The notes under the pieces are model-generated. The model was not told the origin of the DNA and did not search any database. It saw nothing but the letters and a program-made list of their open reading frames with translations. From Sporosarcina sp. ANT_H38 (lineage in GTDB: Bacteria > Bacillota > Bacilli > Bacillales_A > Planococcaceae): a DNA stretch of 64,000 nt. The stretch lies in the NCBI RefSeq assembly GCF_008369195.1, contig NZ_VOBC01000001.1, forward strand, positions 1,302,001 to 1,366,000, in the 5' to 3' direction. Both the position numbers and the translations under genes were made by a program. Below are positions 41,387-50,834 of this stretch, piece after piece. Within the stretch, counting starts at the first letter, position 1; each line of letters opens with the position of its first letter.

Positions 41387-42328
41387 TTAAACAGCTATTG
41401 GAGCTTTAATTCTTGGATGTGGTTCGTAATTTTCAAGTTCGATGTCTTTCGTTTCTAAGTCGAAAATCGTTTTACCTTCGATATTCAGTTTCAACGTCGG
41501 TAGTTTTCGCGGTTCTCGTGTCAATTGTTCGTTCACTTGGTTAATATGATTCGCGTAAATATGTGCATCCCCTAGCGTATGGACGAATTCGCCTACACCA
41601 AGACCACACTCGTGCGCTATCAAATGGACAAGAAGTGCATAGGATGCAATATTGAACGGCACACCAAGGAAAATATCCGCACTACGTTGATAAAGCTGGC
41701 AAGACAGTTTTCCATCTGCAACATAAAATTGAAATAACGCATGACAAGGAGGCAAAGCCATTTCTTCCACTTCTGAGGGGTTCCACGCAGTAACAATATG
41801 TCTGCGAGAATCCGGATTGGTCTTGATACCTTCAATTAAATTCGTGATTTGATCAATCGATTCTTCTCCGTTCGTCCACGAACGCCACTGCTTACCGTAT
41901 ACTGGTCCAAGATCGGCGTATTTCAAAGCGAACTCTTCATCTTCAACAACACGTTTTTTAAATGCATCCATTTCAATTTTATAAACAGCCATAAACTCCT
42001 GGTCTATTGAAGCGCGGCGTCCGAAATCGGTCATATCTGGACCAGAGTACTCCGAACTCGTCACCCATTGTTCAAATGCCCACTCATCCCAAATTGGATT
42101 TCGATCTTCGATAAGCGTTTTGACATTCGTATCGCCTTTCAAAAACCATAGCAATTCAGATGAAATAAGACGGAAAGCCGTTTTTTTCGTTGTCATGAGA
42201 GGGAATCCTTCATTTAAATCAAATCGCATTTGATAACCAAAGACACTGATTGTACCTGTACCTGTCCGGTCTTCTTTTTTTTCACCTGTTTCAAGAACAT
42301 GTTTGCATAACTCTAAATACTGTTTCAC
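41387..42328 (-). CDS. thyA: thymidylate synthase
   Basis: A 313-residue thymidylate synthase methylating dUMP with methylene-tetrahydrofolate. The catalytic Cys stands in [27 protein letters not shown] and [18 protein letters not shown] are the dUMP-binding marks. Compared with the 264-residue ThyB form it has the longer insertion near residues 90-140 ([15 protein letters not shown] ... [10 protein letters not shown]), like staphylococcal ThyA. ATG 42328 follows AGGAGG. In B. subtilis ypjP lies just upstream; here an 8-kb island intervenes. Confidence 0.96.
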
Positions 42329-42390
42329 TAAGAAAGCCTCCTTACATTACTGCTCAGTATATCAAATATAATCGAGCTATCATAATAAAA

Positions 42391-42450
42391 AACACACCTC
42401 TGTCATGGTTAATTAAGATAACCACTTTGAAGATGTGTTTTCCGCCTTCG
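42391..42450 (-). other. displaced 3' end of ypjP, copy 3 (att-like)
   Basis: The minus strand encodes NIDIAKAENTSSKWLS and a stop, matching the last residues of YpjP at 50235 (GDIYWAKDTPPKWLS). After the stop, TTAATTAACCATG is shared with copy 2 (45885-45945). A hairpin (AACACATCT / AGGTGTGTTTTTT) follows. This is where the original end of ypjP should be, next to thyA. Confidence 0.7.
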
Positions 42451-42834
42451 CTATGTCAATATTCCGGTATTTCTACCAACTCTATAAGTGAATGAATGAT
42501 TCCATTGAACACTGCTTCGGTGCTTAGTTTATATGCTGTATTCAATAGTTCAATTTATACAGTAGGATATGTTTTATTCGCTATTTCAAAAATAGCACTT
42601 TAAATGGATTATTAAAATTTGCACTTTTCATCTGAAAGTCCTTAATATACTCAACTAGTAATTACAATAATACTAACCTAAACAGGGCCTATCTTCTCCC
42701 ACTAACTTCAATTCACGATGGAAGTTATCAAAAAATAGAACAAAAAAATTCCTCCACCGTTTGAGTGCTCATCCAATGGAGGGGTTTTAAATGGCATAAT
42801 ACATCCTTAATACGATAATTTAATTGGCTTGATT
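42451..42834. other. non-coding gap at island edge
   Basis: About 380 bases without a gene. It contains at 42745-42790 a minus-strand hairpin CCCCTCCATTGG / CGGTGGAGGAATTTTTTT, the terminator of the S-layer-type gene. Nothing else is recognisable; some sequence next to copy 3 may be diverged ypjP. Confidence 0.5.
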
Positions 42835-45072
42835 TTAATAATTCATGCCCCTGCCTTTTTCAGACATTTCGTGAGCAAGGCGGATAGTTGAAACTGCCAA
42901 CTCTGCATACGTCACTTCTTTAGTAGGGTTAAATTGATTTTGATCAGTCTTTAATAATCCCATTGAGTTTGCCAAAGCAACAGAACCAATGTATTCCTTT
43001 TGAATCTTATTTGCATCCAAAAAGTCAAGTTTAAAGATACTACTATTTTTTGCTGCTTGCTCAAGCCCTAGCACGCGTATATACCAAGCTGCTAGTTCTT
43101 CTCTTTTAATCGGAGTGTCAAGATCAAATTTCTGATCATTTGGTTTAAGAATACCCACTTCCACTGCACGCTCTACCGACTGATATAACGGATGTTTAGG
43201 GTCTATATTATCAAACGTTTGGGTCGTGTTTTCTTGTCCAGCATAGTATCTACCGTCATAAAAATAAGTAAGTGAAGCCATAATAACTTTTAGTGCTTCT
43301 CCTTTGGAAACAGAAGCATCTCCATTAAAGTTTTTATCATCTTTAACATCTAGGATTTTAGCATTAATAAGATAATTAAGTTCCTCTTCTGCCCAAGGAT
43401 GTGAAATGACAGTTGAATTTGTCCCGTTATACAGGTTATTCCATTCTCCCGTGTTGGCATTTAATAAGCTAAATGGATCTTCGTTAAATACAGGTAAATA
43501 GACTAGATCATAGTGATGATCATCTTCTTTTTTCCCTTGTTTCTTATAATTAAGTTTTAGGCTTAGAGCCTTATTCAAGATGGCTTTTGCATCTTCCTCA
43601 GAGATAACTTTATCATTTGATGGCCATTCTTCCATTTCTTGATAGTTGACATTAAGGCTGTTTAAAGAGCCGTCAGCAGCTATATTCACACTAATTTGAT
43701 CACCCAACACAATAATACCATTTACAATTCTTGGGAAAGAAATGTAGTAAGCACCTTGACTCTCATCAAAATATGGTTCTTCTACAGGCATAGCATAGTT
43801 GTGTAGATAGGATGGAACCCATTCCTTTACATATTTTAGTGCTTGAGCGAGGGCTTCTTTTTGAGAAAGAGCGTTCTCCTTTTTAGTTTCCCCTACAGTT
43901 TCATCCAGAATTTGTCTCTTTATATCATGGTATTGAATAACTTCACCAGTTTGTTTATTGATTTCTAAGTTAGTTCCATGTCCGCCATTTGCATATTGAT
44001 ACATATACTGAACACTAATAACTGCCTGTCCGTTATAATTTTCCACCTCTTCAATGGATTGAATGTTCAATTTAACTTTATCAGATTTAATGCTTAGAAT
44101 TTGTTCTGCAATTTTCTTTGCTTCCTCTAAAGTAATTCCATTCTGCTTTGGCGGTAGTGGAGTAGATGTTATCATTTCAATTTTTGTTTTCTCAGGAAAG
44201 TCCGCCGAGTATCCGTTTGCAGTTAGCCATTTAGCTGATGATGCGTGAACTCCTTGCAACTTTGTTGTCGGTTGGTAAACAAGTTGAACACTTCTATCAC
44301 CCGTTCGATAATCATGAGCAATTTGATATTGCAATTCAACTGAAATGTTTTCTTTTACTTTCTCTAATATCTCATTTTTATTTTTTATTTGTTTTAAATC
44401 ATCAAAAGTAGAAGAATCCATCTTCACAGGATTCCTGTAAAAACTAACAATTTCACCATTTCCAAGCACAGATACTTCTATCCTTTGTTCAAAAATAGAT
44501 ACTTGATTTTCCGTACGAGCAAAAGAGAATGAGTAACGAATTGGTTCTGTTAAATTTTGTACTGGAAAATAGTTGTATGGGTCTGTTTCTAATCGATATT
44601 CCTCTCCAGCAAGAAATTCCTTAACAAAATCATTTGCAATTTTCCTAGCCTCTTCTTTTGAAACCTTTGCGGGAAATAAAGACTCTTTTTCAATGATCGG
44701 TTGATAGCTAAATTGTTCAATTTCTAAATTTTCTCCAACAAATCCAACATTACCGTGTAATTGCTTGCCTTTAACTGTCTTTGAAAAGGATAGGTCATAA
44801 CGTAACGTATCATCATCAGAATAAAAATGACCGCCCCCCATATGAAAATCACTATCGTTTATGAAGTCAAACTGATTGGGAAACAACGAGCGAAACTTCT
44901 TAATTAAATCGTTTTTTGTTAAAACTTTTTCTTTTTCTGTTGAAGCGATTTGAATTTGTACTTTTCCAGGTTGCTCAACCACTGTCGTTGAAGCATTAGC
45001 AATTGACGAAAATATTCCAAAAGATAAAGCAGAAGAGGTTAACACAATACCAAATTTCTTTAAATTAGACAA
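42835..45072 (-). CDS. secreted YcdB/PepSY protein with SLH domains
   Basis: A 745-residue exported protein: signal peptide MSNLKKFGIVLTSSALSFG (cut after ANA), two large YcdB/YcdC-type repeats that include PepSY-like units (SKEEARKIANDFVKEFL, LEEAKKIAEQIL, SEEDAKAILNKAL), and three S-layer homology modules at the C-terminus (HPWAEEELNYLINAKIL, QSVERAVEVGILKPND, VALANSMGLLKTD). It is probably held to the cell wall by the SLH part; PepSY units often inhibit peptidases. Starts with TTG behind AGGAGG. Lies inside the ypjP island, so it is probably acquired. Confidence 0.82.
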   Translation of the reverse strand: MSNLKKFGIVLTSSALSFGIFSSIANASTTVVEQPGKVQIQIASTEKEKVLTKNDLIKKFRSLFPNQFDFINDSDFHMGGGHFYSDDDTLRYDLSFSKTVKGKQLHGNVGFVGENLEIEQFSYQPIIEKESLFPAKVSKEEARKIANDFVKEFLAGEEYRLETDPYNYFPVQNLTEPIRYSFSFARTENQVSIFEQRIEVSVLGNGEIVSFYRNPVKMDSSTFDDLKQIKNKNEILEKVKENISVELQYQIAHDYRTGDRSVQLVYQPTTKLQGVHASSAKWLTANGYSADFPEKTKIEMITSTPLPPKQNGITLEEAKKIAEQILSIKSDKVKLNIQSIEEVENYNGQAVISVQYMYQYANGGHGTNLEINKQTGEVIQYHDIKRQILDETVGETKKENALSQKEALAQALKYVKEWVPSYLHNYAMPVEEPYFDESQGAYYISFPRIVNGIIVLGDQISVNIAADGSLNSLNVNYQEMEEWPSNDKVISEEDAKAILNKALSLKLNYKKQGKKEDDHHYDLVYLPVFNEDPFSLLNANTGEWNNLYNGTNSTVISHPWAEEELNYLINAKILDVKDDKNFNGDASVSKGEALKVIMASLTYFYDGRYYAGQENTTQTFDNIDPKHPLYQSVERAVEVGILKPNDQKFDLDTPIKREELAAWYIRVLGLEQAAKNSSIFKLDFLDANKIQKEYIGSVALANSMGLLKTDQNQFNPTKEVTYAELAVSTIRLAHEMSEKGRGMNY

Positions 45073-45879
45073 AATATTCCTCCTAAATTAGTAGTCTTTA
45101 AATTGTACACCAAATTCAGCGAATTGTGAACGCAAGTTATTTTTATCTACAATTACTCATTGTGAAAGTATCAGTTTTGAAAGAATTAAAATTACAACTT
45201 CCAATGACCTATTGAACGAATAATTAATAGTTTAATTGAATTAGTTTTCATTTGGTTCAATTTCATAATAGGGGTATTACCTATAAAATCCGAACGAGGT
45301 TGATTTTCGCTTCAGTCGGACGCTTTCCGCGGGCACGACAATCAACGATAGTAGTCAAGTCATTTACGGACAATAGACTAATACACTTAAAAGTGTTCGT
45401 CTTTACACATTAAATAAGTAGTTATGAAATTGATTCATTTAGATAGACTTTACATCCTCAAACCGTACACTATTTCAAATAGCATTATCTTCAGCGGAAC
45501 ATGAGATCCTCCAACCATTCTTCTTAAGGATTCCTTCGCCTATACATCGTATATTTGGGTATCACACTCCCACCTTTCGATTGGTGATTAGAAACACACC
45601 AATTTATTTTATGAACGTTTCAAAGGAAATATGTCTATTTTTCATCAATTTTATTTCTTACTAAAATTGTTATACGCAATCTGCTTCGTATAGTTAAAGA
45701 TTAGGAATAAAATAATCCCCACCAATCAAACTGGCAAGGATATCTTTACGTATTATTAATGATTTGGTGGTATTGTTGACCGATTTTCGTCATGGTTATT
45801 TTTGAGTGTTTATAATTTCGATTTAATGACTTTTCCGTTCAAATCCATCCTTAGTACGGCATCCGTAATAGTAATAAAA
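45073..45879. other. non-coding gap inside the island
   Basis: About 800 bases with no supportable gene. It holds a short piece of a known dispersed repeat at 45300-45345 and shows several AT-rich stretches; nothing else recognised. The size and lack of genes suggest decayed DNA. Confidence 0.5.
45300..45345. repeat. dispersed repeat fragment (GGACGCTTTCCGCGGGCACG)
   Basis: TCGGACGCTTTCCGCGGGCA is the core of an element found many times in Bacillaceae genomes. Only this fragment is left, with no second copy in the window. Confidence 0.6.
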
Positions 45880-45884
45880 AAACA

Positions 45885-45945
45885 AGCTGGCATGGTTAAT
45901 TAAGATAACCACTTAGAAGGTGTGTTTTTTGCCCCATAAAGATGT
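45885..45945 (-). other. 3' end of a ypjP allele, copy 2 (att-like)
   Basis: The minus strand encodes EEHLYGAKNTPSKWLS and a stop, in frame and clearly related to the end of YpjP (IYWAKDTPPKWLS). Downstream TTAATTAACCATGnCAG equals copy 3. No upstream ypjP sequence accompanies it. It divides the island into two parts. Confidence 0.7.
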
Positions 45946-46011
45946 TCTTCTGGGGTATCTTTGGGGTACAGTTGAAAATCATTGCTTGTTTTCTTTTTCC
46001 ATTTCAATATT

Positions 46012-46132
46012 TCAGAAAACTATAGAACCGTACCATAATTTGGTTTGTTCTCCTTTGAAGCCTTTTTCCAACTCCTGTGCCCGTTCTGCTTGTCCGATGA
46101 GCCAATCTGTTTCGTCTTCATGAATTTGTTTT
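46012..46132 (-). pseudogene. relic of a small phage early gene
   Basis: The minus strand reads KQIHEDETDWLIGQAERAQELEKGF and ends GSIVF. The DxxWLIxxAERAQELE pattern matches small Bacillales phage proteins, including the one at 13300-13659 (FLIELAERAQEMES). There is no start codon or ribosome site. It shows that phage DNA contributed to the island. Confidence 0.5.
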
Positions 46133-46186
46133 TATGGCCATCCCATATTCAAACGTGGCGCATTACATATACTGCTATGGTTTAAT

Positions 46187-46321
46187 TCATTTTTGATTCT
46201 CGCCAACCGTGAGTTTGCTTAAGTTGATTTTCCTCATTTTCGCAAAAGCATTCACATACACAGCGAACGAAATGCCCTCCATCAATATTTTAAACTTTTC
46301 ACGTTCATGATCATTGTTCAT
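46187..46321 (-). CDS. small unknown island protein
   Basis: A 44-residue protein (MNNDHEREKFKILMEGISFAVYVNAFAKMRK). ATG 46321 has a good GAAGGAGTGAG site. Probably helical; family unknown. It lies 25 bases after the gene at 46347-46574, so both may share a message. Could be a remnant. Confidence 0.4.
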   Translation of the reverse strand: MNNDHEREKFKILMEGISFAVYVNAFAKMRKINLSKLTVGENQK

Positions 46322-46346
46322 TCCACTCACTCCTTCGTTTTTAGCA

Positions 46347-46574
46347 CTAAACTTGATAAGGCTCAAGCATGCCAGCAAATACGATTAATTCCCCCGACAA
46401 ATTCGTAACCCTGTAAAAATCCAATTTCTCCGAACCATGCTCCGTCAATTCTTTTATTCCTACATCGCCTATTCCAACCTCATAGTGAGATAAGTCGTTA
46501 TATATTTTCTTGATAGTTTTCTTTTCTGATAAATAAAAATTATCAAATATCGTTAATTTCTCCGTATCATTCAC
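46347..46574 (-). CDS. small unknown island protein, intact paralogue
   Basis: A 75-residue protein: TIKKIYNDLSHYEVGIGDVGIKELTEHG ... YRVTNLSGELIVFAGMLEPYQV. A second copy with a frameshift lies at 47036-47262. Alignment between the two (KKI..DL..YEV, LTE.G, VFAG.L.P) indicates a real coding sequence under past selection. Start ATG 46574 follows GAGGGG closely. Function unknown. Confidence 0.5.
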   Translation of the reverse strand: MNDTEKLTIFDNFYLSEKKTIKKIYNDLSHYEVGIGDVGIKELTEHGSEKLDFYRVTNLSGELIVFAGMLEPYQV

Positions 46575-46693
46575 CCCTCAAATCACCATGCCGAAATATC
46601 CCAACCTGTCACCGATCCGTAACTGACTACACTATCACTAAGCAAATTTTGTAGTAAACTTACATTAAATACAATCAGAAAGGAGACTATCAA

Positions 46694-46867
46694 ATGACAG
46701 CTACGACGTGGATGTGGATGTGGATTTGCATTTGTATTGCCACCTTGATTTTACAGTTCATTTTTATTTATATCGTCCTCCATCAAAGGAATCGATTTAA
46801 ACATACGATTCATACGATTGATCCAATTGATGATCGTATAAAAGAAATGAATAGAGAACCGACATAG
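46694..46867 (+). CDS. small single-span membrane protein
   Basis: A 57-residue protein too short for usual detection: MTATTWMWMWICICIATL followed by ILQFIFIYIVLHQRNR, one membrane helix, and a charged tail (DPIDDRIKEMNREPT). ATG 46694 follows a perfect AAAGGAGACTATCAA site. It sits on the opposite strand between the two paralogous small genes. Function unknown. Confidence 0.55.
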   Translation: MTATTWMWMWICICIATLILQFIFIYIVLHQRNRFKHTIHTIDPIDDRIKEMNREPT

Positions 46868-47035
46868 AGTAATGAATTATTTCTTTGAAAATGAATTTAT
46901 AGATATGGAAAGGACTTGCACATGTTAGTAAAAGTCCTTTCTATCATTTTGGCACCGCATCAAAAATAGTAAGTTGCTGCACCACATCAGTCACTCCTTC
47001 ACTCTGTTTAAATTTTGAACCCATCCGTCTAGTTC

Positions 47036-47262
47036 TCATAAATCAAACAACGAAAATCGCTCGTACATTTCCGCCTTAATTAAGGCATATTTAATCTCAT
47101 GTGGTACAAGCAAGCCTGCGAATACTCTTAATTCCTAGCCGAATTCATAACCATATAAATATTCGTTTTGTCTAAGCCGTACTCCGTTAATTGGATTTTC
47201 GCCACGCCTTCCTTCTCGACTTCATAAAGCTGTAAATCACTACTTATTTTCTTTATTTGCAC
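47036..47262 (-). pseudogene. frameshifted paralogue of the gene at 46347
   Basis: GTG 47262 follows GAAGGAG. The frame reads MQIKKISSDLQLYEVEKEGVA ... YMVMNSA and then stops. One base shift restores ELRVFAGLLVPHEIKYALIKAEM ... RFSLFDL to a stop at 47036. The intact homologue has ELIVFAGMLEPYQV at the same place. So a single-base change broke this copy. Confidence 0.6.
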
Positions 47263-47520
47263 GTCGGCACTCCTTCTCCTTATAGTCGCACTGTGAATAA
47301 TAAATAATTGAAATGAAAACAAGTAATATTCAAATTTCCGACAAAATACTTCTCATAGAATAAGGGAAATGTTATAATTTTCCTTATTAAAATAAGGAGG
47401 TACAAGTCCAATGGTAAAAAAATAAAATGAGAAAATCTTATATTATTTTATCAATTTTAGAATAAACATGCAGATTTTCTCTTTCATAGAATTATTATTA
47501 ATGGAATGAGGAGATATAAC

Positions 47521-48369
47521 ATGTTAATTAAATTAAGTGATACTGTTTATTATTTATCTAATCAAGATGATAGAGAACGACCAACATTAGGATTGGTATG
47601 TGGTAACCAACATAGTCTAATAATAGATTCTGGTAATTCTACTCAGCACGCTAAAGACTTTTTACTAGAAATCGAGAAACTAAATGTACCACCAGTTAAA
47701 TATGTGGCTATTACACATGCACATTGGGATCATTTCCTAGGTATGAATGAATTTGATGCAACTGTTATAGTTAATAGCCAAACAAACGAAATAATAAAAG
47801 AATGGCAAAGCTATTCGTATGATGACAGTTCACTCGAAAAGTATGTACAAACTAATCAGATGAGTTCTATGTGCATGAAGATTATACAAGCTGATATGCC
47901 TAACAGAGATAATTTCAAGTTGAATTCACCAGATGTAATCTTTGAAAATACCTTAACAATCGATTTGGGAAATAAAGTTTGCATACTTGAAAGAATCAAA
48001 AGCACCCATACAAATGACTCTACAATCATTTATATACCCGATGAAAAAGTTGTTTTTTTAGGTGATTGTGCATATGGGACAACCACAAATTCTTTATTTC
48101 ATTTTAAGCAATCATTGTTATTGCCTATGATTAAAGATATTCAAAAATATGATGCTGAAATGTTCCTACTTGGTCATGAATCTATTTGCGATTCAGATGA
48201 AATGAATATATATTGGAAAGAGTTATCAGCAGCAAGCCAAGTTGTAAAATCTACATCTCTAGAAAATGCTTTAGAGTGCTTTAAGTTAGAATTCAATAGG
48301 GACCCTAATGATAATGAATTATTTTTCCTACAAGCATTTGTGAATGACCATGTTATCCACTCACAATAA
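47521..48369 (+). CDS. metallo-beta-lactamase-fold hydrolase
   Basis: A 282-residue cytoplasmic protein with the metal-binding motif THAHWDHFLGM (His-x-His-x-Asp-His, residues about 61-71), a further Asp in FLGDCAYGTT and His in FLLGHESICD. These bind two zinc or iron ions; the family covers many hydrolases and the substrate cannot be told. ATG 47521 follows TGAGGAGATATAAC. It has no nearby partner genes and is AT-rich compared with the core genes. Part of the ypjP island; terminator at 48402-48434. Confidence 0.8.
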   Translation: MLIKLSDTVYYLSNQDDRERPTLGLVCGNQHSLIIDSGNSTQHAKDFLLEIEKLNVPPVKYVAITHAHWDHFLGMNEFDATVIVNSQTNEIIKEWQSYSYDDSSLEKYVQTNQMSSMCMKIIQADMPNRDNFKLNSPDVIFENTLTIDLGNKVCILERIKSTHTNDSTIIYIPDEKVVFLGDCAYGTTTNSLFHFKQSLLLPMIKDIQKYDAEMFLLGHESICDSDEMNIYWKELSAASQVVKSTSLENALECFKLEFNRDPNDNELFFLQAFVNDHVIHSQ

Positions 48370-48401
48370 TTTCATAGATTACATCAATCAAATACAAATA
48401 G

Positions 48402-48434
48402 TAGCCATCTCTTAATTAACATGAGGTGGCTTTT
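48402..48434 (+). terminator. terminator of the metallo-hydrolase gene
   Basis: AGCCATCTC / GAGGTGGCTTTT hairpin around TTAATTAACAT, with a short T run. Confidence 0.65.
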
Positions 48435-48626
48435 AATTAGTCAATAATTATTCAGTTTGTGTCTACTGCTTCATATGTTCGAACTACACATGATCTTTTT
48501 CATGTTTTATTACAAGTAAAGTCGTCACCTTTACAATAATGTTATTGAAATACATAGGTTATTGATTATAATTAATGTAATCGAACGTGTGTATTTAGTG
48601 ACCGTTTTATAAAAGGAGACTAAAAA

Positions 48627-48986
48627 ATGGATAAAGCTAGACTTCAAGCATTTTGTCTGACCCTACCCGGAACGACACATGATTACCAAGTAGACTGGCA
48701 AGCAGATCGTTATCATATTGGCGGGAAGATGTTTGCTATGATAGGGGGAGACTCTCAAAGAAAGCCAATTATCACCTTAAAATGCGAACCTACTCGTGCT
48801 GAAGAGTTAAGAGAAACCTATCAAGGCATTATTCCTGGGCATTATATGAATAAAACACACTGGAACTCTATTTATTTTGATTCAGACCTATCCGACGATC
48901 TATTAGAAAATCTAATTCTACATTCCTATAATTTAGTTTTTGAAAAACTAACTAAAAAAGTCCAAAATCAAATTATTCCAAAGTAA
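48627..48986 (+). CDS. MmcQ/YjbR family protein
   Basis: A 119-residue protein with the CyaY-like double-wing fold of the YjbR family: LQAFCLTLPGTTHDYQVDWQADRYHIGGKMFAMIG, ITLKCEPTRAEELRE, and GHYMNKTHWNSIYFD near the end. Members bind DNA in vitro in some cases; the biological role is unknown. ATG 48627 follows AAAAGGAGAC. Single gene in the island with AT-rich flanks. Confidence 0.85.
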   Translation: MDKARLQAFCLTLPGTTHDYQVDWQADRYHIGGKMFAMIGGDSQRKPIITLKCEPTRAEELRETYQGIIPGHYMNKTHWNSIYFDSDLSDDLLENLILHSYNLVFEKLTKKVQNQIIPK

Positions 48987-49215
48987 TTTTCAACAAAATC
49001 TTTAGTTCTGTTATTTTTGTTGTCCAATTGAAAGAGTAACTTACTCTTTCTTTTTTAATTTGCATTGTATTTTGAACCCAGCCGTCACTTCGCCCTTCCA
49101 TGCTTCCGACCAATATAATAAAATCCTAACGCTAGTAACAAAGCCGAAATAATGAAATTTCCAACCTTCACACGTGGTAATCACTGTCGACATAACTTCC
49201 ATCCTTCCATCCTTA

Positions 49216-49314
49216 CTACCTTTTCTCATACAATTCCCGTTGCAGCAGAGGCTCGTACAGCCAAACTTTATAACCGTTCTCCCACCGTAATAATAACCGC
49301 CACACGCCGTTCAT
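49216..49314 (-). CDS. possible 32-residue small protein
   Basis: MNGVWRLLLRWENGYKVWLYE ... from ATG 49314, preceded by AAAGGGGATGGTG, 17 bases after the stop of the gene at 49331-49534. Tightly spaced to that gene and rich in Trp and Tyr, so it may be real or the remainder of a longer gene. Confidence 0.3.
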   Translation of the reverse strand: MNGVWRLLLRWENGYKVWLYEPLLQRELYEKR

Positions 49315-49330
49315 ACACCATCCCCTTTAG

Positions 49331-49534
49331 TTAATCCCTCACCCATTCCTTATTTTCCAACCGCACAACGATCAGTTCCACGCCTGTTTTAAGTTCGAAC
49401 AATTTCTGCCACAAAGGAAAATCCCGTCCAACAGGACTACCTTTACTATCAATCACCTCTACGAATCCAACGAAGCAAGTAACCCTAAATTCCGCAGAAT
49501 ACTTAGCGCCTGACTTCTCACGTTTGCCCTTCAA
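49331..49534 (-). CDS. small unknown protein in the island
   Basis: Up to 67 residues (YSAEFRVTCFVGFVEVIDSKG ... FELKTGVELIVVRLENKEWVRD). It looks like a compact beta-rich domain of a small Bacillales protein, but I cannot name it. The ATG at 49534 lacks a clear ribosome site, and the frame may have lost its beginning. Confidence 0.35.
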   Translation of the reverse strand: MKGKREKSGAKYSAEFRVTCFVGFVEVIDSKGSPVGRDFPLWQKLFELKTGVELIVVRLENKEWVRD

Positions 49535-49681
49535 GTAAGCTGTTTCATAAGAGAACCTCCATTATAAGAATCAAAGCGATAACGTACTAGATAAGATGGA
49601 AAGATTAGAAATTATTTATGAATATGAGATGGCAAAGAAAGATAAATAAGGGGTGGCATTGGAAAGGAAGGTCGTATTGGA

Positions 49682-49885
49682 ATGGGAAAAAAGAAATCGA
49701 AAAAACCGTTTTATAAAAAGTGGTGGTTTATTACGATTGCTGTATTCCTAATTGTTGGTTTTATTGGTGCAGAGTTAGATGGTGGCGACAAAATGAAGGA
49801 TGAACTGAGGAAGATTGCGATGTCCACTCCAGTTAAAACAGTTACCGAGAATTCCATAGGAGCAAGAATACCAAGAGCCTTTTGA
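49682..49885 (+). pseudogene. N-terminus of a membrane or lipoprotein-like gene, truncated
   Basis: The frame starts MGKKKSKKPFYKKWWFITIAVF, a basic head and one membrane helix typical of short Bacillales surface proteins (DUF4352-type and relatives), then DGGDKMKDELRK. After about residue 55 it ends within the integrase relic. The mature domain is missing, so it is a broken gene. Confidence 0.4.
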
Positions 49886-50127
49886 TCGCTTACAAAGAGT
49901 GCTTTGAGCAAACTATGAAATCTTATCATTTTCGAAATCCAGATGGCTATGTATTCGTCACTTATGCTGGCGAACCGCTTGGCCAACGATATTTGAAATG
50001 TATCATCAACCTAATATGCGAAAGTGAAAAATCCCCACACTTCACAACCTATTATTTTAGACATATATTTGTAACGATCCAACTATCAAATAATATACCG
50101 ATTTCCACTGTTGTTGCGCTAGTGTGA
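49882..50127 (+). pseudogene. tyrosine recombinase remnant beside ypjP
   Basis: The frame reads RNPDGYVFVTYAGEPLGQR ... SPHFTTYYFRHIFVTIQLSNNIPISTVVALV, matching the C-terminal part of a phage-type integrase: the expected HxxR box appears as TTYYFRHIFVTI, with His replaced by Tyr at the first position. The catalytic Tyr region is missing (stop after VALV). It lies about 100 bases from the 3' end of ypjP, the expected place of an integrase relative to its att site. Confidence 0.65.
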
Positions 50128-50196
50128 AATACCCCGAAACGATTTATAAAACTCACGCACACTCCACAAACGTTGATATATCAATGTTTACAAAAG

Positions 50197-50226
50197 AAAA
50201 AACGCTCGTTATTTCAACGAGCGTTT
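50197..50226 (-). terminator. terminator of ypjP
   Basis: AAACGCTCGTT-GAAAT-AACGAGCGTTTTTTC on the minus strand: eleven-pair stem with T6, 10 bases after the ypjP stop. Confidence 0.9.
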
Positions 50227-50234
50227 CAGCGTTT

Positions 50235-50834
50235 TTAGGATAACCATTTCGGCGGTGTGTCTTTTGCCCAATAGATGTCACCGATTGAATGATGAGCTGT
50301 AAATTCATCTTCGGCTATATGATAGTGAAAGTTGTAGAAGTAGCCATCTTGTGGCCGCTTCTCAGTGCGTACATGAAAACGGATCAGGTCTTTTCTGTTT
50401 TCGAGATCATATACATTAAAAATTTTCTCAGAATAGTCCCCTGCAGGTTTTTCGCTTATCGCAAGACGGCGTTTATGTAAATCTCCTGAACTTGCAAGCG
50501 TCATTTGGATTGCTTCTTCAATCTTCGGGAAAATAACGCTATCAAATTCATTAGCGATTACCGGACCAACTTTTGTTCCGAATTTCATGTAAGATAACTT
50601 TTTCGCAGAGGTGATAAATTGTTCTTCTATAGATTCGGAATTATCTTCCAGACTATCGTCAGCTACCGCATCTGCTAATCCAATAGAATAATCGTTACTT
50701 TGCGAAGGGCCTATTGCATGTTTCGAAACATCTTTGTCTTGCAAGTTTGTCCAAATTTCATGATTCGGTGAAATGGCACCGAGTGTTAAGAGTGCTACGG
50801 TAACAATGAGCGTTTTCTGTAACCAGTTTTTCAT
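50235..50834 (-). CDS. ypjP: YpjP family protein
   Basis: A 199-residue protein conserved in Bacillales: N-terminal helix (LQKTLIVTVALLTLGAIS, residues 4-22, signal peptide or anchor), then an acidic linker and a conserved C-terminal domain (SAKKLSYMKFGTKVGPVI ... GYFYNFHYHIAEDEF ... GDIYWAKDTPPKWLS). Function unknown. It keeps its B. subtilis neighbours ypiP and brxA on the right, but not thyA on the left. Extra copies of its 3' end lie at 45885 and 42391, so the end present here was probably supplied by an integrating element. Confidence 0.85.
   Translation of the reverse strand: MKNWLQKTLIVTVALLTLGAISPNHEIWTNLQDKDVSKHAIGPSQSNDYSIGLADAVADDSLEDNSESIEEQFITSAKKLSYMKFGTKVGPVIANEFDSVIFPKIEEAIQMTLASSGDLHKRRLAISEKPAGDYSEKIFNVYDLENRKDLIRFHVRTEKRPQDGYFYNFHYHIAEDEFTAHHSIGDIYWAKDTPPKWLS

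Follow-up and report, generated by a model that had tools for sequence, protein, structure and literature searches.

The ypjP 3′ end as a probable attachment site for temperate phages in Planococcaceae

We analysed a 64,000-nucleotide stretch of the Sporosarcina sp. ANT_H38 genome (the window) and compared it with related genomes. The 3′ end of ypjP very probably serves a family of temperate phages, and elements derived from them, as the site of attachment to the chromosome within this bacterial family. We observed copies of this gene end, empty and filled sites, one integrase clade associated with the locus, phage genes in one element and exchange of the predicted terminator. The proposal of an earlier note, made from the window alone, that elements integrate into the last ypjP codons and bring a new gene end, is supported by the empty and filled sites, the integrase clade and repeats at a distance.

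Three ypjP ends and two islands in the window

Intact ypjP (50235..50834, minus strand; 199 aa; Pfam YpjP PF14005, E 2.5e-50) was found in all 68 genomes of the Sporosarcina group, and in uninterrupted genomes it is directly followed by thyA, encoding thymidylate synthase (41387..42328, minus strand, in the window). A repeat search of the window placed 42400-42446, 45887-45933 and 50222-50268 in one family, all on the minus strand. Together with a weight matrix, this family defined the ypjP 3′ end proper, or attL core (50235..50267, minus strand; its final 33 bases, stop included), and two displaced ends, also on the minus strand: copy 2 (45900..45932; ..AKNTPSKWLS stop), at the boundary between both islands, and copy 1 (42413..42445; ..AENTSSKWLS stop), the outermost attR, 88 nt from thyA. 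Copies 2 and 1 are identical to the window's ypjP end at 27/33 and 24/33 positions, respectively.

Using a pattern fitting both displaced copies and allowing at most 3 mismatches, at which the window's own ypjP end is not reached, we found exactly 2 occurrences in the window, against 0.00 expected from 100 dinucleotide-preserving shuffles, and exactly 2 in the whole genome (4.63 Mb), while a reversed control pattern gave 0. The weight matrix, built from the ypjP ends of the group's other genomes, scored 44.0, 36.3 and 28.1 at the three window sites; the next window site scored 10.1 and the maximum over 60 simulated 64-kb sequences was 19.0. These results confirm the three same-direction copies that the earlier note had described, and chance similarity among terminators was rejected as their source. 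One detail required correction: the motif assigned to the two outer copies, TTAATTAACCATG, is common to the displaced copies at 42.4 and 45.9 kb rather than to the outermost pair.

The ypjP-proximal island carries the C-terminal part of a decayed tyrosine integrase (about 49831..50151, plus strand; open at 49882-50127). This remnant, already noticed from the window, is real: it aligns at 48% identity to an intact relative (residues 254-356) and is interrupted by one TGA and one TAA, and its open part is 75% identical to the integrase of G017. Its Pfam matches were limited to PF00589, below cut-off; by similarity and position, it appears closest to the ypjP integrase clade described below. Between the remnant and the gene lies a palindrome-like sequence, AACATTGATATATCAACGTT (50169..50188, minus strand), a candidate integrase or excisionase arm site, which was matched at ≥15/20 positions in 15 of 41 interrupted sites and in 0 of 29 uninterrupted ones. 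The cargo includes genes for a YjbR-family protein (48627..48986, plus strand; E 9.5e-28) and a metallo-beta-lactamase-fold hydrolase (47506..48369, plus strand; E 1.5e-19), with the YjbR stretch (48476-49208) common to G020 at 91% over 735 bp. A short open reading frame (ORF) that matches DUF1064 weakly, short of the Pfam cut-off (49331..49534, minus strand; E 0.0039), is a possible phage remnant; a Pfam scan of ten window ORFs found no structural phage genes.

The thyA-proximal island encodes a 745-aa S-layer-homology (SLH)/PepSY-domain protein (42835..45072, minus strand), whose gene is also present in G020 and G037 and partly in G036. From ypjP to thyA, the window comprises ypjP, the remnant integrase with its cargo, copy 2, the SLH-gene island, copy 1 and thyA, a layout that very probably represents what is left of two or more insertions after decay. 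Repeated insertion is the best reading of the three copies, which would be its relics. The earlier suggestion that two integrations explain them agrees with the copies and the integration model; we infer in which order both insertions happened and what kind of element, presumably of phage origin, the thyA-proximal one was.

Empty and filled sites between ypjP and thyA

We next compared the ypjP-thyA interval across the 59 group genomes in which it could be read on one stretch. Outside this count are G017, G020, G036, G037, G045, G046, G056 and G066, with split contigs or genes far apart, and G057, which lacks thyA. The interval spans 56 bp to 17.8 kb and is shorter than 200 bp, that is, uninterrupted, in 28 of the 59; relatives free of the island, which the earlier note's model called for, therefore exist. 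Among the 31 intervals longer than 200 bp, 13 contain a thyA-side displaced ypjP end that scores above every shuffle (maximum 17.6 in 420 mononucleotide-shuffled scans), located 55-124 nt from thyA. The thyA-side copies of G008, G030 and G035 pass the 99% threshold (12.3) alone and are doubtful, given reverse-strand scores as high as 13.5 (in G008).

The displaced ends of G012 and G038 match the empty site of their relative G004 at 76/76 bases compared, whereas the end that ypjP carries today departs from the empty site at synonymous positions. Similarly, the displaced end of G011 is identical to the empty site of G050 over 62 nt. The old ypjP end thus lies beside thyA in these filled genomes, as the earlier note had supposed. 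Its proposed comparison of cargo favoured the model: cargo differs between filled intervals and 13 of the 31 have a displaced end, while in the remaining 18 no thyA-side copy above the shuffle maximum was found, suggesting that some of these intervals have been reshaped, have decayed or are of other origin.

These comparisons also bear on a rival account, in which the ypjP end was tandemly duplicated or underwent homologous recombination, lengthening the interval, and the recombinase remnant is incidental. In G166, full-length ypjP occurs twice, with identical sequence and 12.3 kb between the copies, so larger duplications do happen at the locus, and we found no integrase in the window's thyA-proximal island. 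However, an empty relative that was reasonably close was available for 7 of 11 comparisons, and in these the displaced end becomes identical to the empty site from 27-36 nt before the stop-codon end; cargo differs between intervals, and in intact cases a clade-specific integrase lies at the ypjP edge. We consider this explanation very improbable and favour site-specific integration.

Integrases, phage genes and stacked elements

Across 39 integrase loci, ypjP adjoins the integrase in 9/9 genomic members of one clade, representing four genera, and in 0 of the 30 other loci. The nine integrases and that of virus record G263 form this clade with 100/100 support, and the association with ypjP accounts for 1 label change on the tree, compared with 9.0 in shuffles. 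Matches in G098, G101 and G238 (33-36% identity; locus sequence not included) and the integrase fragments of the window and G020 were excluded from the 39. All nine clade integrases have beside them a ypjP with a normal ending, that is, a restored host reading frame. Two of the nine are damaged, with G237 matching from residue 43 onward and G217 containing an internal TGA. Three intact relatives contain PF14657, PF14659 and PF00589 (arm DNA-binding, SAM-like and catalytic domains, respectively), with PF14659 just below cut-off in G017. An order-level search covered 261 genomes and, among the matches listed, all were from the window's own family.

In seven of seven genomes from three other genera, the ypjP end recurs 6.4-48.4 kb away with 29-33 of 33 bases identical, while the next-best matches in these genomes reach 19-21/33. 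These three are among the four genera in which integrases of the clade occupy this site.

Virus record G263 (44.8 kb) has the same layout, with the integrase at one end and a ypjP end near the other; its integrase is identical to that of G233. All 10 proteins chosen from this record were matched, including terminase, major head protein, tail sheath, tape measure and endolysin, and it is in G263 only that we met phage structural genes between att sites. A scan of viral contigs with the G263 integrase returned itself, two contigs at 83-89% and one 23% match, while a scan with a single protein, the G024 integrase, gave no match. In a phage-record collection searched to E values of up to 1e-40, the sole relative, at 31%, was Psychrobacillus phage Spoks.

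More than two att copies per interval were found in the window (3), G030 (3, one weak) and G217 (4, one weak), and stacked insertions thus appear to recur at the ypjP end. In G020, a further insert of 15.3 kb lies in the thyA-side copy, bounded by ~62-bp identical direct repeats and carrying a different tyrosine integrase (L109:14764-15762) with homologues in G021 (69%) and G064 (31%). An inverted repeat was seen near the G021 homologue.

The G020 insert raises an alternative for the window, in which the phage-type integrase brought only the ypjP-proximal island and the SLH island arrived through another recombinase using the same hairpin. Consistent with this, the SLH island has no detected integrase, and the 3′ flank of copy 2, compared by eye, looks native-like and unlike the family's common CTCG-type terminator; row L094 of that alignment was out of register and was excluded from counts. 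Yet ypjP-end copies lie on both sides of the SLH island, as they do around ypjP-type elements, and in G030 the middle one of three copies precedes a terminator of the element type, as would be expected after two ypjP-type insertions. We regard the alternative as possible, albeit unlikely, and retain two ypjP-type insertions for the window.

Terminators, the integration model and known systems

Terminators were surveyed at 70 sites, 29 uninterrupted and 41 interrupted (G045, G046, G056, G066 and G057 excluded). Per-sequence folding placed the 5′ arm of a hairpin inside the ypjP codons in 29/29 uninterrupted sites (26/29 by automatic pick), where third codon positions of the ypjP end vary together with their hairpin partners. 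With ypjP's last codons doubling as one arm of its predicted terminator, the site would be codons and terminator at once. In contrast, 31 of the 41 interrupted sites have a self-contained terminator-like hairpin starting from the stop codon or later, and predicted folding gave no clear terminator in 6; G036, G037, G040 and G067 kept the coding-overlap terminator despite thyA not adjoining. The window's ypjP is followed by a hairpin of the self-contained element type, also seen in relatives, GAAACGCTCG...CGAGCGTTTTTT (50199..50227, minus strand; -16.2 kcal/mol, z -4.29), beginning 10 nt past the first base of the stop codon. On the thyA side, copy 1 and the bases past its stop form a terminator-like hairpin followed by a T run (42388..42443, minus strand; -22.5 kcal/mol, z -6.04). 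From these predictions, the hairpins probably function as terminators.

The copy 1 hairpin could suggest that the copies are mere terminators resembling the ypjP end, with no integration history, and the thyA-side hairpin has indeed drifted from the ypjP codons in the window's closest relatives. But the similarity of the copies is far above shuffles, stretches of 62-76 bases in displaced ends recur unchanged in the empty sites of relatives, and the integrase clade accompanies 29-33/33 repeats at large distances. The distant repeats, empty-site identity and integrase clade refute hairpins as the sole explanation, leaving this reading a negligible chance.

We therefore return to integration. A tyrosine integrase, whose gene lies at the edge of the element that adjoins ypjP, would recombine the ypjP end borne by the element with that of the chromosome; the exchange probably falls about 36 to 22 nt ahead of the stop-codon end, as judged from the Sporosarcina genomes where it could be placed. 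The element would supply roughly the last nine ypjP codons, the stop and a transcription terminator, keeping ypjP whole, and would push the gene's former end, with its former terminator arm, to the far side, beside thyA, where the displaced copy would remain able to fold as a terminator. The youngest element of the window would likewise have given ypjP its last ~nine codons and stop, with the crossover localized in relatives rather than in the window itself.

We lean slightly towards a further proposal, that a phage-integrase clade has specialized on this dual-use site through a portable gene end (codons, stop and independent terminator), and that each insertion leaves a working terminator on the thyA side, which could make stacking harmless and let elements accumulate. 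If true, every insertion re-ends and re-terminates the host gene. That element and host both keep the reading frame and predicted terminator suggests a possible reason for tolerance of the target. More broadly, the puzzling variable region between ypjP and thyA would be explained, and the integrase clade gains a defined non-tRNA-gene site in four genera at which empty sites, intact elements and decayed stacks can be compared. The clade also provides an integrase for which many genomes of this bacterial family contain a native target.

Integration into gene 3′ ends is already known as a kind, as for e14 in icd; a literature search found no paper on ypjP as an integration site. SCC/SCCmec-type elements insert repeatedly and stack at the 3′ end of rlmH, leaving several att copies, which resembles the ypjP site, although they use serine recombinases rather than a tyrosine integrase. 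Phage 21 also enters at the icd 3′ end of E. coli.

According to the available part of the TIGER/Islander account, 43.4% of about 1.75 million mapped islands sit in protein coding sequences (PMC12424338), and the ypjP elements appear to belong to this same general class; that text, as distinct from its data tables, does not name ypjP as a site. Many attP sites are described, in the portion available, as completing the entered gene (PMC12884075). The closest likeness drawn here is to the e14 prophage, which, as far as the accessible text describes, enters the 3′ end of icd in E. coli, supplies its terminal codons and leaves the displaced end on the far side (PMC6379469), as the ypjP elements would do. 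The two differ in gene, integrase and host group, and in the length displaced, 163 bp at icd versus about nine codons at ypjP.

Displaced ypjP ends and the ypjP–thyA interval

We searched the window for the 3′ end of ypjP, which the earlier note had described as present in three copies, and 33-base matches, shuffles and a weight matrix all bore this out. The gene lies on the minus strand at 50235–50834 (Pfam YpjP, E = 2.5e-50), and its last 33 bases recur on the same strand at 45900–45932 (copy 2, 27/33 identical) and 42413–42445 (copy 1, nearest thyA, 24/33 identical). A pattern fitting both displaced copies with ≤3 mismatches matched twice in the window (0.00 expected from 100 dinucleotide shuffles). 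The 4.63-Mb genome as a whole also gave two matches, and none to a reversed control pattern. Using a weight matrix built from the ypjP ends of other genomes, we obtained scores of 44.0 for the ypjP end, 36.3 for copy 2 and 28.1 for copy 1; the next window site scored 10.1 and the maximum over 60 simulated windows was 19.0. No alternative kind of attachment site came up: the window has no tRNA gene, and 38–54 kb gave no Rfam match. Among named relatives found with ypjP, Sporosarcina accounted for 8 of 14 loci and for 8 of the 9 with at least 55% identity, the ninth being labelled Arthrobacter.

Across the 68 genomes of the ‘Sporosarcina’ group, the genus group of the window, ypjP was found in all and thyA in 67. 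The interval between them could be read on one stretch in 59 genomes, leaving out eight with split contigs or distant genes and the one lacking thyA. It ranged from 56 bp to 17.8 kb and was <200 bp in 28 of the 59. In 13 of the 31 intervals >200 bp, a ypjP-end copy scoring above 17.6, the maximum of 420 mononucleotide-shuffled scans, was located 55–124 nt before thyA. The thyA-side copies of three further genomes (G008, G030 and G035) pass the 99% threshold of 12.3 only and are doubtful, given that reverse-strand scores there go up to 13.5, and the weight-matrix scan found no thyA-side copy in the other 15. Genome G017, with the two sides on different contigs, also carries a copy before thyA (score 35.7).

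Interval cargo varies by genome and includes transporters, a sulfur-assimilation-like operon, phage genes and the SLH protein of the window; Pfam was run for some ORFs, and the others were named by eye. In five genomes (G008, G013, G014, G042 and G055; stretches L076, L080, L081, L098 and L101) the interval is filled by one cassette, whose genes are ABC-transporter-like, membrane and MFS-like by eye, which looks like fixation of island cargo. G042 also has another thyA-like match, split and outside the ypjP locus (G042:C36:153479-154312, 63–65% identity). In another genome, G166, two identical full-length ypjP genes lie 12.3 kb apart (L150, G166:C1:3304000-3322500), with phage-like and transposase-like ORFs, again named by eye, between them.

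An integrase clade adjoining ypjP

Genome G024 carries an intact 384-aa tyrosine integrase, with Pfam arm-binding, SAM-like and catalytic domains, which ends 154 bp after the ypjP stop. Its close relatives among the 68 genomes (E ≤ 1e-20) are an intact gene in G017 (64% identity), a C-terminal remnant in G020 (67%) and the window remnant (48%), which corresponds to residues 254–356 and contains one TGA and one TAA. All four adjoin ypjP; the other listed matches are 26–32% identical. Among 250 genomes of the family, nine matches shared 61–100% identity with the G017 integrase, against 42% for the next one. Seven of the nine are complete; of the other two, the match in G237 starts only at residue 43 and that in G217 at residue 46, the latter with a TGA.

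We then examined flanks of about 1.5 kb at 39 integrase loci (one gene being present twice), and found ypjP beside 9/9 close integrases and 0/30 others. The nine form one clade with the integrase of a virus record, G263 (support 100/100), and the ypjP-flank label requires 1 change on the tree versus 9.0 in shuffles. The G263 integrase is identical to that of G233, so these two are not independent. Clade members come from four genera (g1, g4, g13 and g14), and the two from Sporosarcina do not group with each other, which suggests that the integrase moved between genera.

Distant ypjP-end repeats were found in seven genomes of three other genera: G147 (+12.1 kb, 29/33), G237 (+18.0 kb, 33/33), G097 (+43.6 kb, 33/33), G233 (+44.2 kb, 31/33), G135 (+48.3 kb, 32/33), G241 (+48.4 kb, 33/33) and G217 (+6.4 kb, 30/33; +15.1 kb, 32/33; and a weak repeat at +21.6 kb, 21/33). 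Other next-best matches in these genomes reached 19–21/33. G263, the 44.8-kb IMG/VR record behind L153, has the integrase at one end and a ypjP end near the other. All ten of its proteins chosen for comparison match PHROGs (integrase, terminase, head protease, major head protein, tail sheath, tape measure, baseplate, endolysin, peptidase and SSB), and on this gene content the element is a contractile-tailed temperate phage. Two further virus contigs (L151 and L152) contain a ypjP end; L151 runs on into thyA, and its ORFs match the G024 island.

Probable exchange point and replacement of a predicted terminator

Comparison with empty sites, where ypjP directly precedes thyA, narrows the probable point of exchange. 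The displaced copies of G012 and G038 equal the G004 empty site at 76/76 bases, from −36 to +40 nt of the stop-codon end, and their ypjP-attached ends first differ from it, at synonymous positions, 28 nt (G012) and 22 nt (G038) before that end. Against the G050 empty site, the displaced copy of G011 is identical across 62 nt; counted from the stop end, its identity reaches 31 nt back, and the attached end departs at 22 nt. From these comparisons, the exchange falls some 36 to 22 nt ahead of the stop-codon end, and a single point common to all would fall at 31–28 nt. Overall, identity between displaced copy and empty site reached 27–36 nt back in 7/11 comparisons (G001, G011, G012, G024, G038, G043 and G064); in the other four, compared with a more distant relative, point differences ended it at 15–18 nt. 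The element would thereby bring roughly the last nine ypjP codons, the stop and the sequence after it, and the original end would move to the far side of the element. The proposal that elements integrate into the ypjP end holds as far as sequence comparison can tell.

At uninterrupted sites, the final ypjP codons are predicted to pair with bases immediately past the stop, and a T run comes next. Per-sequence folding gave this coding-overlap hairpin in 29/29 such sites (28 plus G041, with thyA 268 nt away); the automatic picker took it in 26 and settled on a weak hairpin further downstream in the remaining three (G010, G023 and G048). Within the coding-overlap hairpin, the first proline codon has its third base paired in 27/29 (G-C 18, A-T 5, T-A 4) and the second proline codon in 23/29, the latter with six pair types. 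This pairing supports the predicted hairpin but does not prove it, because these sequences share ancestry and each was folded to its own optimum.

Interrupted sites differ: 31/41 have a self-contained terminator-like hairpin starting 1–31 nt after the first stop-codon base, four retain the coding-overlap hairpin (G036, G037, G040 and G067), and in six the scan found no terminator or a very weak one (G001, G013, G030, G031, G063 and G065). The form AAC(A/G)CTCG..CGAG(T/C)GTTTTT occurred within 75 nt in 18/41 interrupted and 0/29 uninterrupted sites, and a sequence matching AACGTTGATATATCAACGTT at ≥15/20 positions, at +36 to +53, in 15/41 and 0/29 (mononucleotide shuffles: 2/820 and 1/580, respectively). 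The AACGTTGATATATCAACGTT-like sequence is also present in G011, G012, G027, G038 and G054, which have no close integrase relative in the 68-genome search and, given this sequence, are likely remains of the same element family. At the window locus, the native hairpin is lost from the ypjP-attached end (−3.7 kcal/mol, z 0.48), after which comes an element terminator (−16.2 kcal/mol, z −4.29); the hairpin of copy 1 ahead of thyA remains strong (−22.5 kcal/mol, z −6.04), and that of copy 2, which now lies internally, is largely gone (−6.4 kcal/mol, z −1.36). Least expected is that the predicted coding-overlap terminator would double as the attachment site, with the element replacing both portably.

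Stacked islands and relation to known systems

A counterpart of the SLH gene of the window (42825–45130) adjoins a thyA-side copy in G020 (80.5% identity across 2309 bp) and in G037 (79.3% across 2298 bp); G036 has part of it (75.9% across 715 bp). The YjbR stretch of the ypjP-proximal island matched G020 alone among 13 compared stretches (91% over 735 bp), along with short further pieces of that island, and the integrase remnant matches G020 and G017. A ypjP end with 3′ flank resembling copy 2 is present in G036 (81% over 75 bp) and G037 (79% over 78 bp), and G021, G022 and G035 also match copy 2, but over 41–46 bp that cover essentially the gene end. Most simply read, the SLH island would have arrived first and the integrase-bearing island later, at the ypjP end. 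The copy 2 flank is native-like by eye, atypical of elements of this integrase clade, so the SLH island may derive from another element type. The window is not the only stacked case: in G030, an element-type terminator follows a middle ypjP-end copy, and a weak copy stands 72 nt ahead of thyA; several copies occur in G217; and the far copy of G097, G135 and G233 is followed by an element-type rather than a native terminator.

G020, a sister genome, also carries a 15.3-kb insert in its thyA-side copy hairpin (L109:590-15963), between identical direct repeats of about 62 bp, encoding a different tyrosine integrase (PF00589, E 8.3e-35) and a resolvase (PF00239). L242 (G021:C274) holds a 69% homologue of this second integrase and a terminator-like inverted repeat (L242:1330-1367). 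On one contig of this sister genome (G020:C1), ypjP (2267749-2268345) and thyA (2565868-2566803) lie about 298 kb apart on opposite strands, suggestive of an inversion that broke within the island. G036 and G037 have the two genes on separate contigs, at least tens of kb away from the contig ends.

In the library searched, we found no paper containing ypjP together with integrase or attB; those naming both ypjP and prophage are cutinase-secretion studies, and the sole match for a Sporosarcina prophage integration site (PMC8779076) reportedly concerns a Psychrobacillus temperate virus. TIGER/Islander tables may hold the ypjP site. A narrow search found no paper combining a tyrosine integrase, attB and replacement of a rho-independent terminator, a feature that may nonetheless be described. 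Integration into gene 3′ ends is, as a general kind, well established: PMC12424338 places 43.4% of mapped islands within coding sequences, and PMC12884075 states that many attP sites complete the gene entered. The ypjP locus would be a further example, resembling e14 of E. coli, which enters the icd 3′ end and supplies the terminal codons (PMC6379469), as proposed here for ypjP.
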